From Methanobacteriota archaeon (GTDB taxonomy: Archaea; Thermoplasmatota; Thermoplasmata; Thermoplasmatales; ARK-15), in assembly GCA_009758405.1 (NCBI GenBank), contig WSBC01000008.1, forward strand, positions 1 through 64,000: a DNA stretch of 64,000 bases, written 5' to 3'. The notes beneath the pieces were generated by a model. The model searched no databases and was not told the origin of the DNA. It saw only the letters and a list, made by a program, of their open reading frames with translations. Below, one piece after another: positions 21,629 through 63,134 of this stretch; position 1 is the first letter of the stretch; each line of letters begins with the position of its first letter. Both the position numbers and the translations under genes were made by a program.

Positions 21629-23077
21629 CTATACCACACTGCCTAGCTGCCTCTTAATTATTGTATCCAGAATTTCAACAAACTCAATCTCCCTTCCCCG
21701 GGGAATTGAGCCACCTGCTGCTACATTATGGCCTCCACCATTACCGCCCACAGCAATAGCAGCCTCCCTAATTGCTCTTGATAGATCTAGGCCCTTTTCT
21801 ATTAGGGACCTTGGTGCCCTCCCTGATACCTTTATTGTACCGTACTCATTGTCGGCAAATCCTATTATTGGAAGTGAAGGATCCGCTATTCCAGAAGATA
21901 ATATTATTGATGCAATAGTACCTATCACTGTGTCTGGTATATTGCTACCTGCATTAAAATATTGTAGGTGTTGCATTTTATTAATTCCTATATCCTTTAA
22001 ATAATCAATTCCATCAAGTATGATCTTTCTATGTTTTTGAAGAAGGCCTACAGCCTTCCTGTATTCTACATCCCTATCTCCCTTTGCCACCCTAAAACCA
22101 GTAATTGCATCTCCATATCTGCCACACGCATTAAGGAGCGTGGCAAACTCCTTTGCATCCCTTAAATATGTACCCTCCTCTTCTTTAATAAGTGTGTAAA
22201 CCTCACCTATCATTCTCTCCGCCATCATGCTTCCATAACCCGATGTTATTATATTTTTAACAAGGGAGCTAAGTATTTTCCTCTTCTCATCCTTAGTTAA
22301 GTCCACCCACCTCCTCCAATTCTCACCATCCTTAAGGGGTATTGAAAGATTTTTGAGGAATTCTATTGCTCCCCTTTCATCACCCGTGATATTCGGTAGA
22401 ATGGGATCTGATACATATTCAAGCATTTTGTATACAGGCCGTGTCTCCCTTCCAAAAAACCTTGCATCTATTTCTACCTTTAAAAGGCCAAATTCTTCTG
22501 CCTCCTTTAATATATATCTATTTGTTCCTGCAAGCTTTAAAAAGGCAATATCTTGGAGATCGCCTACTGCACCCACAATAGCAAGTGGACTCAAGTTTAC
22601 ATTCTTTGAATTAAGTTCCCTAGCAACAAGGTATGTCACACCTGCCCCGCTTATATCTATTCCTCCATCCTTACCAAAAAGATGGGGATTTAGCTGTAAT
22701 ATGTCATCTTTGCTTATTTCTTCAAAAAGATCCGTTAATGTTTTCCTCTTTTCTTTTGGAACAACAGGTATAAGATCACTCGGTGAGTGGTGGTCGGTAA
22801 TAATTACATTCATACCATGCATCTCATGAACCATCCCGCTTCCGAGGTCTGTAAACCAGTATAATTGGCTATTATTTTTTTTAATTTCATCAAGAGTACC
22901 AGGATCTAGCTGTTTTAGAAAAATGACCTTATGGTTTTTCCCTATAGAATCCAGGGCTGAAGATGCAATAGCAGCTGAGGTAATGCCATCTGCATCTATA
23001 TGAGAAACAATTAATATGTCATCATATTTTATGATTTTTTCCGCAAGTTTTTTAGCCTGTGTAAGATATTCCCTCAC
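21629..23077 (-). CDS. DHH-family phosphoesterase (archaeal RecJ-like)
   Basis: A DHH/DHHA1 phosphoesterase, the family that contains archaeal RecJ-like nucleases and the GINS-associated nuclease. Motif SHIDADGITS is at residues 25-34, TDLGSG at 76-81 and the naming motif TDHHSP at 94-99. The C-terminal DHHA1 region ends with VGGNGGGHNVAAGG. Length 482. The start is a GTG. Known relatives act in DNA repair, replication or RNA turnover; the sequence does not decide between these. It is followed by pyrF. Confidence 0.88.
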   Translation of the reverse strand: MREYLTQAKKLAEKIIKYDDILIVSHIDADGITSAAIASSALDSIGKNHKVIFLKQLDPGTLDEIKKNNSQLYWFTDLGSGMVHEMHGMNVIITDHHSPSDLIPVVPKEKRKTLTDLFEEISKDDILQLNPHLFGKDGGIDISGAGVTYLVARELNSKNVNLSPLAIVGAVGDLQDIAFLKLAGTNRYILKEAEEFGLLKVEIDARFFGRETRPVYKMLEYVSDPILPNITGDERGAIEFLKNLSIPLKDGENWRRWVDLTKDEKRKILSSLVKNIITSGYGSMMAERMIGEVYTLIKEEEGTYLRDAKEFATLLNACGRYGDAITGFRVAKGDRDVEYRKAVGLLQKHRKIILDGIDYLKDIGINKMQHLQYFNAGSNIPDTVIGTIASIILSSGIADPSLPIIGFADNEYGTIKVSGRAPRSLIEKGLDLSRAIREAAIAVGGNGGGHNVAAGGSIPRGREIEFVEILDTIIKRQLGSVV

Positions 23078-23119: not shown

Positions 23120-24289
23120 TTATTTTTCATGGTTTACTTTTTTAAAGAATTTCAATAATATAATAATTGAAGATATTTGAAGAATGATAATGTATAAAAC
23201 AATTATAAGAATCTGGTTAAAGAAATATCCAACAAATATGCTAGATATCAATAACCCGTATCCATAGGAGGTATTTAATGCTCCAAAAACTGACCCTCTG
23301 TGTTCCTCCTCAATATAACTGGCTACAACTGATCTTGTAACTGTATCGTTGATCCCAGTAAATGCACCAAATAATAGACCTAGGAGCATGAAAACTAAAA
23401 TATTATGAAAACTAACCATTGAAATGATTAATATTGCCAATATAGGACCAATAATTATTATTTCCTTTCCAATTTTATCATATGCTATGCCAAAGATAAA
23501 GCCAAATATACCTTCACCCACCATAGCAAGTGTGAATATTAATGTTACCTCATACTGTTCTAAAAATCCCTGAGCCAAAACCAGTATAAATGAGATATGG
23601 AAGATTCCAGCTGCGCTTAACCCTATGCCAATAAAATAATACATGAGATGCCTCTTTTTAATTCCCCTCTCTATCTTTTTCCTAGGTTCAAAGTTTATCT
23701 CCTTTTTTGAATATTTATAGGAGACATATAAAGATAAAATACTCAAAGTTGCAGGTATTGCCAAAAATAGAAATGCATCTCTGTAACCGTAATTATAAAA
23801 AAGCATCACGGATATTATTAAAGGGCCTATTACAGCACCTGCCTGATCGAGTAAATTCTGTAATGCAAATGAATATCCAATTCTGTTTTCAGATGCCACT
23901 GTTGAAATAACATAATCCCTTGGTGGAATTCTTGTTGCACGACCCATCCTCTCCATAATGATTAAGATTGATGCAATAATGTAATTATTCGCTAATGCAA
24001 GTAATGGTACTGCAAAAAGATTGATTGTATAACCTAAAAACATCATCCCCCAGTAGTTTCTTGTCCTATCCGAAATCTTTCCTGAAACGGATCTGAATGA
24101 GTATCCCAAAAAGTCTCCAATACCTATCACAATACCTAAGGCAAATACGGACCCACCAAGTACATATGTAAAATATTGTGGTATTATACTTCTTGCACTT
24201 TCGTAGGTCATGTCAGCGAAGAAACTCACTATACCTATCAGAATTATTAGCCTCAAATTTGGACTTATTTTCTTTATTCCCTTACTCAT
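23120..24289 (-). CDS. Major facilitator superfamily transporter under fluoride-riboswitch control
   Basis: A 12-span-like MFS protein (about 389 residues from ATG 24289; the track start at 24301 is GTG). The loop between membrane segments 2 and 3 carries the MFS-type RSVSGKISDRT; a basic central loop near residue 200 (EPRKKIERGIKKRH) separates the halves. It is the last gene of a three-gene unit: its start overlaps the 129-residue protein gene by a few bases. The aptamer at 24912-24963 heads this unit, so the transporter is a candidate fluoride exporter or HF-stress protein. That role is inferred from regulation, since MFS proteins are not among the classic fluoride exporters (CrcB/Fluc, CLC-F). 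Confidence 0.85.
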   Translation of the reverse strand: MSKGIKKISPNLRLIILIGIVSFFADMTYESARSIIPQYFTYVLGGSVFALGIVIGIGDFLGYSFRSVSGKISDRTRNYWGMMFLGYTINLFAVPLLALANNYIIASILIIMERMGRATRIPPRDYVISTVASENRIGYSFALQNLLDQAGAVIGPLIISVMLFYNYGYRDAFLFLAIPATLSILSLYVSYKYSKKEINFEPRKKIERGIKKRHLMYYFIGIGLSAAGIFHISFILVLAQGFLEQYEVTLIFTLAMVGEGIFGFIFGIAYDKIGKEIIIIGPILAILIISMVSFHNILVFMLLGLLFGAFTGINDTVTRSVVASYIEEEHRGSVFGALNTSYGYGLLISSIFVGYFFNQILIIVLYIIILQISSIIILLKFFKKVNHEK

Positions 24290-24662
24290 ATTTAAATTCA
24301 CTTAGGATAGTGTACCTTTCTATTAGGTCATCAATTTCTTGATTTTTCCTAATTTCTCTAGAATTTTTTATTTTGTTCAAATTTAAAAATTGTGACATAA
24401 GCCCTGAAAGATTAAATGCAAGAACTTGATTTTCCTTTAATATTTGAAATATCTCAAATTTTAAAGCTGCTATTTTTCCTTCAATCTCAAAACTTTCCTT
24501 CCTAAGGTTCCATAACTTTTCCTTTTTTTCAAGATAATTTTTAAAGAGTTCATTTACTTCTTCCTGTGAAAATTTTTCATCCTTGCAGGGATAGGAAAAT
24601 ATTTCTACATAATTGATACCAAGCTCTTTCATAATATCTTCAACAAAATCACCTAAGGACAT
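24282..24662 (-). CDS. Small helical protein in the fluoride-responsive operon
   Basis: About 126 residues from ATG 24662 (MSLGDFVEDIMKELG), which has GAGGGTGAGA just upstream; the track start at 24671 is GTG. The middle is strongly coiled-coil (ELFKNYLEKKEKLWNLRKES). No membrane segment and no known family that I recognise. The start overlaps the upstream coiled-coil gene by 14 bp and the end overlaps the MFS gene by 8 bp, so the three are coupled. It might form a complex with the upstream protein. Confidence 0.7.
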   Translation of the reverse strand: MSLGDFVEDIMKELGINYVEIFSYPCKDEKFSQEEVNELFKNYLEKKEKLWNLRKESFEIEGKIAALKFEIFQILKENQVLAFNLSGLMSQFLNLNKIKNSREIRKNQEIDDLIERYTILSEFKYE

Positions 24663-24891
24663 TAATCTCACCCTCTAGCTCCTCAATATATTTTTTCATT
24701 ATTTCCCTGTCCTTTTCAATTTTATTTTTTAAATTTTGATAATAATTAAGTGAGTATCTTTTTTTACTTATTTCCACCTCAAGCTTTGATATCTCCTCAT
24801 CAATGTATTTTATTTTTTCAATCAGGCAACTTTTAATTCTACATATTACTAGTGAATTATCCTGGCTTAGATTTACATTATTCCTTTCCAT
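24649..24891 (-). CDS. Small coiled-coil protein, first gene of the fluoride-responsive operon
   Basis: An 80-residue protein that is almost entirely amphipathic helix (KIKYIDEEISKLEVEIS), with an N-terminal CRIKSC pair of cysteines. It starts with ATG 24891, about 20 nt after the end of the fluoride aptamer, with AAAGGTTGAT as a weak ribosome binding site. No known family recognised. Its place as first gene downstream of a riboswitch suggests a role in the fluoride response, but the function is open. Confidence 0.7.
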   Translation of the reverse strand: MERNNVNLSQDNSLVICRIKSCLIEKIKYIDEEISKLEVEISKKRYSLNYYQNLKNKIEKDREIMKKYIEELEGEINVLR

Positions 24892-24911
24892 ATAATCAAC
24901 CTTTTTTTATT

Positions 24912-24963
24912 TAGTAGGCGTTATCACCAAAAACTGGATTTAAGGCGAACGCCATCGCCTTTT
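24912..24963 (-). promoter_or_regulatory. Fluoride riboswitch (crcB motif)
   Basis: The reverse strand reads GGCGATGGCGTTCGCC, then TTAAAT, a short hairpin CCA-GTTTT-TGG, then TGATAACGCCTACT. This matches the fluoride aptamer in every conserved part: stem AAGGCG/CGCCTT closing the loop ATGGCGTT, the loop sequence GGCGTT forming a perfect six-pair pseudoknot with AACGCC, the TGAT before it and the TACT tail. The aptamer starts at the predicted transcription start and ends about 20 nt before the first start codon. No poly-U terminator is visible, so control of translation, or of transcription by another route, is more likely. Known fluoride aptamers usually turn genes on when fluoride rises. 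Confidence 0.94.
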
Positions 24964-24979
24964 TTCTATATAGATTTTT

Positions 24980-24989
24980 AATATTTAAG
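24980..24989 (-). promoter_or_regulatory. TATA box for the fluoride-riboswitch operon
   Basis: The reverse strand reads CTTAAATATT here, about 20-25 bp before the first bases of the aptamer. This is the expected spacing for an archaeal TATA box if transcription starts right at the aptamer. Confidence 0.55.
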
Positions 24990-25252
24990 TATTTTGAATC
25001 ACAATTTTTTTTAGTTTTTAATATACTATTTAAAAAATGACTTTTATCACATAATTTGCTCGTAAAAAAATAATTGAATTTTAGTATGTAAAATAATTTT
25101 AAATTAGCTAATTAAAAATAAAAATTATGGGCTTGATTTTAAAAAATTATAATTTGATCAAATCGCATTTTATAAAATTCTTTGTAAATTTAAGAATGGA
25201 TTACATAGAAGATTTAGTTATCCTAAAATTTATTAGGTTTTTAACTTTAAAG

Positions 25253-63032: not shown

Positions 63033-63134
63033 TGCCGGGGCCGGGGATCGAACCCGGGGCCTTCGGATTTCCCAAGTCCTTTTTAAAAAAGGAACCCTAT
63101 GAGTCCGACGCTCTACCAGCTGAGCCACCCCGGC
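63033..63134 (-). tRNA. Elongator tRNA-Met (anticodon CAU) with a 29-nt intron
   Basis: The reverse strand gives acceptor GCCGGGG paired with CCCCGGC, discriminator A, D arm with AGCTGGTAGAGC and T arm GGGTTCGATCCC. The anticodon stem CGGA/TCCG closes only after removal of 29 nt (63069-63097, reading GGGTTCCTTTTTTAAAAAGG...) inserted after A37, the canonical archaeal intron site. The mature loop is CTCATAA. The first pair G-C and lack of initiator features indicate the elongator. The rps3ae stop abuts its 5' end. Confidence 0.94.

Follow-up and report, generated by a model that had tools for sequence, protein, structure and literature searches.

A fluoride riboswitch is located upstream of a three-gene operon on the minus strand of the DNA analysed here, a stretch of 64,000 nt from contig WSBC01000008.1 of an archaeon of the Thermoplasmatales (the window). 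The arrangement is probably a fluoride-response operon with a conserved core of two small genes, CC1 and CC2, to which the third gene, encoding an MFS transporter, was added locally. The aptamer is the same full element, with stem and pseudoknot, as the known fluoride (crcB) riboswitch RF01734, but the copy in the window precedes a coiled-coil gene pair and not an exporter gene.

The fluoride aptamer and its operon

The elements of the locus are, in the order of transcription:

24980..24989, minus strand: TATA-box-like CTTAAATATT, from sequence reading, ~25 nt upstream of the aptamer region
24908..24968, minus strand: fluoride riboswitch aptamer RF01734, from cmscan and covariation on 27 aptamers
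24948..24953, minus strand: 5′ strand of the pseudoknot, GGCGTT, pairing with 24917-24922
24917..24922, minus strand: 3′ strand of the pseudoknot, AACGCC, in the predicted unbound fold paired with the ribosome-binding site
24895..24902, minus strand: ribosome-binding site AGGTTGAT of CC1, with a predicted unpaired probability of 0.13 that rises to 0.86 when the pseudoknot is formed
24649..24891, minus strand: CC1, an ORF of 80 aa, predicted coiled coil, the conserved first gene
24282..24653, minus strand: CC2, an ORF of 123 aa, helical, the conserved second gene
23120..24286, minus strand: MFS transporter of 388 aa (PF07690, 1.3e-31), the lineage-specific third gene
21629..23077, minus strand: DHH/DHHA1 protein with a DHH_CID domain (archaeal RecJ/GAN type), from Pfam

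When the whole window was compared with Rfam by cmscan, RF01734 matched over its full length at 24908-24968(-) with 51.2 bits (E 2.8e-11), well above the gathering score of 34 bits. The first-pass annotation had read a fluoride aptamer with a stem and a six-pair pseudoknot from the letters and had proposed a run of Infernal with this model, and its reading was borne out. The aptamer is the only RF01734 copy in its own genome (1.30 Mb in 34 contigs, 88.8% complete). Its P1 stem is formed by GGCG and CGCC, and its pseudoknot by the six pairs between GGCGTT and AACGCC. In an alignment of 27 aptamers from the order, most of which precede CC-type genes, the pseudoknot was paired in 100% of the cells, with five of the six pairs changed on both sides. 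The covariation score of the whole aptamer structure was reached by 0 of 500 shuffles, and sliding the partners by 1-3 columns lowered the pairing over the whole structure from 93% to 44-60%. The fluoride riboswitch upstream of CC1 is real, and fluoride binding and control of expression by this copy are predicted from the known class and from folding. The position of CTTAAATATT suggests a transcription start near the 5′ end of the aptamer. Archaeal occurrence of the fluoride riboswitch has been reported previously (Weinberg 2010, PMC2864571).

Folding of the leader suggests how the switch might work. In the unbound fold, GCCU of the 3′ strand of the pseudoknot pairs with AGGU in the ribosome-binding site of CC1; the bound state was modelled by withholding both pseudoknot strands from pairing. 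The resulting gain in accessibility was matched by 24 of 400 random pseudoknot sequences. Among 23 loci, 13 showed a rise of more than 0.15 in the predicted accessibility of the Shine-Dalgarno sequence, and 2 a fall of that size. These predictions suggest a translational ON switch, with a clear signal in the window and a weaker one in some relatives. As in the known class, binding of fluoride-Mg to the aptamer, at the mRNA's 5′ end, would close the pseudoknot, and the closed pseudoknot would free the AGGT of the ribosome-binding site, so that translation of CC1 and, via overlapping stop and start codons, also that of CC2 and the MFS gene is predicted to increase.

CC1 begins 17 nt past the end of the aptamer, and the neighbouring genes CC1/CC2 and CC2/MFS overlap by 5 nt each, as expected for the coupled three-gene operon described earlier. 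CC2 measures 123 aa from its ATG and 129 aa from an upstream GTG. The DHH/DHH_CID gene follows 42 nt downstream of the MFS gene and is possibly co-transcribed with the operon. Neither small protein reached the cut-off for any family in Pfam or NCBIfam, in keeping with the initial description of them as proteins of no known family; NCBIfam matches to Rad50, RoaM and YabA lay far below the cut-off and were taken as coiled-coil noise. Like CrcB/Fluc operons, the locus has a fluoride riboswitch directly upstream, and two small tandem genes superficially recall Fluc pairs, but CC1 and CC2 are helical and coiled-coil-like; a degenerate Fluc pair was rejected, there being neither PF02537 nor membrane-like sequence. 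A phage origin of the pair was also considered and rejected, and no relative was found among viral contigs. At a distance from the operon, the window carries a tRNA gene (63033-63134(-)) with an insertion of ~30 nt in the region of the anticodon loop, probably an archaeal intron.

The CC1-CC2 pair across the order

The comparison set comprised 117 genomes of the order, the genome of the window and 116 relatives, and RF01734 was present in 91 of them. The genes behind 80 retrieved match regions were clustered, and three types dominated: a complex-I/hydrogenase-like operon carrying PF00146, PF00346 and PF01058, tandem MutS-domain-V genes, and genes of the CC type. The operon and the MutS genes agree with formate hydrogen lyase and mutS, which are named, together with K+/Cl- transport, in the paper on the motif's discovery (PMC2864571). 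Most fluoride riboswitches of the order (about 45 retrieved loci, e.g. L032 and L061) precede the operon resembling complex I and hydrogenase-4, and the tandem genes with MutS domain V, ~500 aa in length, were observed at L059, L064, L084, L087, L098, L102 and L103.

The CC2 of the window groups with nine other proteins whose genes immediately follow riboswitches in the f1 and f2 families of the order. An earlier search had found CC2 homologues in 44 of the 117 genomes; a merged CC2-core profile, combined with the positions of aptamers and CC2 homologues, gave the counts of genomes with and without the switch. By this profile, riboswitch-CC1-CC2 is present in 24 genomes of three families (both f1 genomes that have CC2, 11 of 13 in f2 and 11 of 13 in f4), with the CC2 core located 132-505 nt behind the aptamer. 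The first-pass annotation had proposed a search for the same pairing of riboswitch and operon in relatives; what recurs is riboswitch-CC1-CC2, and the MFS gene is not part of it. A CC2 core without riboswitch was found in 40 genomes of family f6, where the CC2 loci tested had no aptamer at the gathering score. The f6 loci inspected typically show an overlapping small-large gene pair as in CC1-CC2. CC1 equivalents stand first in the riboswitch loci of three families, and in f4 the aptamer is followed by a miniature CC1 (about 41-44 aa) and then by a CC2 of 66-97 aa. The profile of the window CC2 matched the f6 form with P 3e-10 and the f4 form with P 1e-7. The profile match between CC1 of f1/f2 and f6 was not significant, and the equivalence of CC1 in f6 therefore rests on position and overlap. 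Since the pair is conserved both with and without the switch, CC1-CC2 appears to be a conserved module of two genes that has come under fluoride control.

The neighbours of CC1-CC2 vary widely among loci. In the genera g21, g23, g25 and g33, Pfam matches and gene order place the pair after an RPA-type gene with an OB fold and the partner of that gene, and at L146 and L147 (genomes G010 and G016) it directly follows an apparent dnaJ gene. An alignment of Aciduliprofundum CC2 proteins only, when compared with the genome contigs, found five loci, all of DHVE2/Aciduliprofundum. At four loci of the Aciduliprofundum family (L088, L089, L094 and L163) a second copy of CC1-CC2 precedes the riboswitch in the same orientation, and the aptamer is flanked by two copies of the pair. 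In Aciduliprofundum, the riboswitch-CC1-CC2 locus has a divergent gene for inorganic pyrophosphatase (PF00719; L170:897-1424(-)), a known fluoride-sensitive enzyme, and an upstream gene for a CitMHS-type transporter (PF03600; L169:222-1298(+)). In genus g11 of f4, a 64-aa CC2-like gene is divergent to a CLC gene (L220 and L221), and no riboswitch was found there.

The transporter gene and the known exporters

The third gene of the operon is a clear member of the MFS drug/anion transporters (PF07690, 1.3e-31, 110 bits, over the cut-off) and reached no curated subfamily. Within the 117 genomes of the order it had no match better than 29% identity, and at the chosen cut-off it matched in 44 of 293 genomes of the phylum, its own included. 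No fluoride riboswitch was detected within ~1.5 kb on either side of the loci of its 19 closest relatives outside the order; two of the genomes concerned, G179 and G183, have a fluoride riboswitch elsewhere. An MFS gene also follows CC1-CC2 in four genomes of one genus of the Aciduliprofundum group, but the two proteins share 28 bits, belong to different subfamilies and are unrelated beyond the superfamily. Most riboswitch-CC1-CC2 loci are without an MFS gene, among them all of f4 and that of G004. In G004, the nearest of the genomes with the pair, a small gene that reads as HU/HTa histone-like takes the place of the MFS gene. Judged from these sequence comparisons, the MFS gene is specific to the lineage of the window and probably a local addition.

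The known exporters are nearly absent from the order. CrcB (PF02537) was found neither in the operon nor in its genome, which is 88.8% complete, and exceeded the cut-off in 3 of the 117 genomes of the order. Of 164 genomes taken from the phylum, 60 had CrcB, all of these from outside the order. By position, CrcB follows the riboswitch at 37-76 nt in two genomes outside the order, G120 and G161, and directly in one inside it, G089. CLC proteins are encoded in 88 of the 117 genomes, with none found in the Aciduliprofundum family, and, in contrast to loci of the CLC-F antiporter, none was seen behind a riboswitch here. The class comparison was made with the protein of one relative, G043, which scored 121 bits to the ClcA-type Cl- transporter and 56 bits to CLC-F, the window genome's own copy having been only read; the G043 protein resembles Cl-/H+ exchangers, not CLC-F. 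The own CLC gene lies on the contig of the window just beyond its end (L162:6213-7975; G000 contig C32, about 66212-67974) and is broken by an apparent frameshift into two frames of 362 and 226 aa, with the break near a GSGGSGG motif; the assembly may contain an indel here, or the gene itself may be broken. As an exporter that would explain the locus it was rejected, being not riboswitch-linked and ClcA-like in the relative. The initial observation that neither CrcB/Fluc nor CLC-F is encoded at the locus thus stands.

The first-pass annotation had suggested from this observation that the MFS protein is a new type of exporter for fluoride or HF, with CC1 and CC2 as its accessory proteins. The gene does sit in the riboswitch operon with overlapping reading frames, an exporter is missing from a genome that has no CrcB and from which, among the proteins examined, no CLC-F-like one emerged, and the unrelated MFS gene behind the pair in the Aciduliprofundum group would count as a second recruitment. 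We nevertheless regard this explanation as unlikely and did not retain it, because the gene is lacking from most loci that have the switch and the pair, the two would-be recruits come from different subfamilies, and the 19 relatives of the window protein show no link to the riboswitch. The 5-nt overlap with CC2 keeps the MFS protein in consideration: it may help to expel fluoride or a weak acid, or it may be a passenger. A different transporter, the benzoate transporter of Pseudomonas putida, confers fluoride tolerance indirectly, without lowering internal fluoride (PMC13104614).

A possible role of CC1-CC2 in the fluoride response

The fluoride-response operon with CC1-CC2 as its core thus remains the explanation that we favour, and our best guess is that the pair acts in the cytosol, as a factor for stress or genome maintenance, and not as an exporter. 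Structure models of moderate confidence were obtained for the f2 proteins. CC1 was modelled as two helices, one short and one long, and CC2 (pLDDT 79) as a strand-strand-helix-helix start followed by a 78-residue helix, which includes the second helix of the N-terminal part, and a short helix. Neither model had a significant match in the PDB, and a profile search of the PDB returned only coiled-coil chance matches, e.g. GCN4. The recurrent pairing, the gene overlap and the predicted helices suggest joint synthesis of CC1 and CC2, which most likely assemble into a coiled-coil hetero-oligomer in the cytosol. Such a complex would act as the effector of the response to fluoride stress, probably by protecting a cytosolic process.

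As to the process concerned, genome maintenance is the least weak lead and a tentative one, not a result; it comes from the position of the pair at the tail of the RPA-type operon in four genera and from the MutS-like pairs that are controlled by riboswitches, and, given how widely the neighbours of CC1-CC2 vary, it depends mainly on one operon type.

A rival reading is that both proteins are DNA-binding regulators, made upon fluoride stress, that switch other genes. The two strands and two helices at the start of the Aciduliprofundum-group model would suit such a role, one f2 CC2 gave weak fold matches to CopG (TM 0.80 on 41 residues), MatP and Arc, and three of eight CC2 proteins matched a phage 'transcriptional regulator' family with values up to 9.5e-6. 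However, none of the fold matches was significant, and the N-terminal part is absent in f4 and apparently not conserved in the CC2 of the window. Since a part that is missing from f4 cannot be the shared function of CC2, we consider regulation of this kind slightly less likely than export by the MFS protein. That this riboswitch copy is a stray or without function, and that the order of the genes came about by accident, is hardly credible: the CC2 of 40 f6 genomes does manage without an aptamer, but the pseudoknot covaries, the RF01734 score is strong, and the aptamer stands shortly before CC1 in 24 genomes of three families.

A response operon built around CC1-CC2 is of interest because a riboswitch with a known ligand assigns a stimulus to genes of otherwise unassigned function; in this case, it marks as fluoride-responsive a widespread pair of archaeal proteins that is new to description. 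HF readily passes into cells in acid habitats. The analysis also exposes a gap in the order, in which 91 of 117 genomes have the riboswitch, CrcB almost never occurs and the one CLC compared is chloride-exchanger-like. It is conceivable, though we would not yet call it probable, that most of this acidophile-rich order answers fluoride via a separate regulon that tolerates or repairs the damage, consisting of a complex-I-like complex, MutS-like pairs and the previously undescribed CC1-CC2 complex, or else via an undescribed export route. Aciduliprofundum boonei appears to carry CC1-CC2, and this cultured organism may allow the role of the pair in the fluoride response to be tested.
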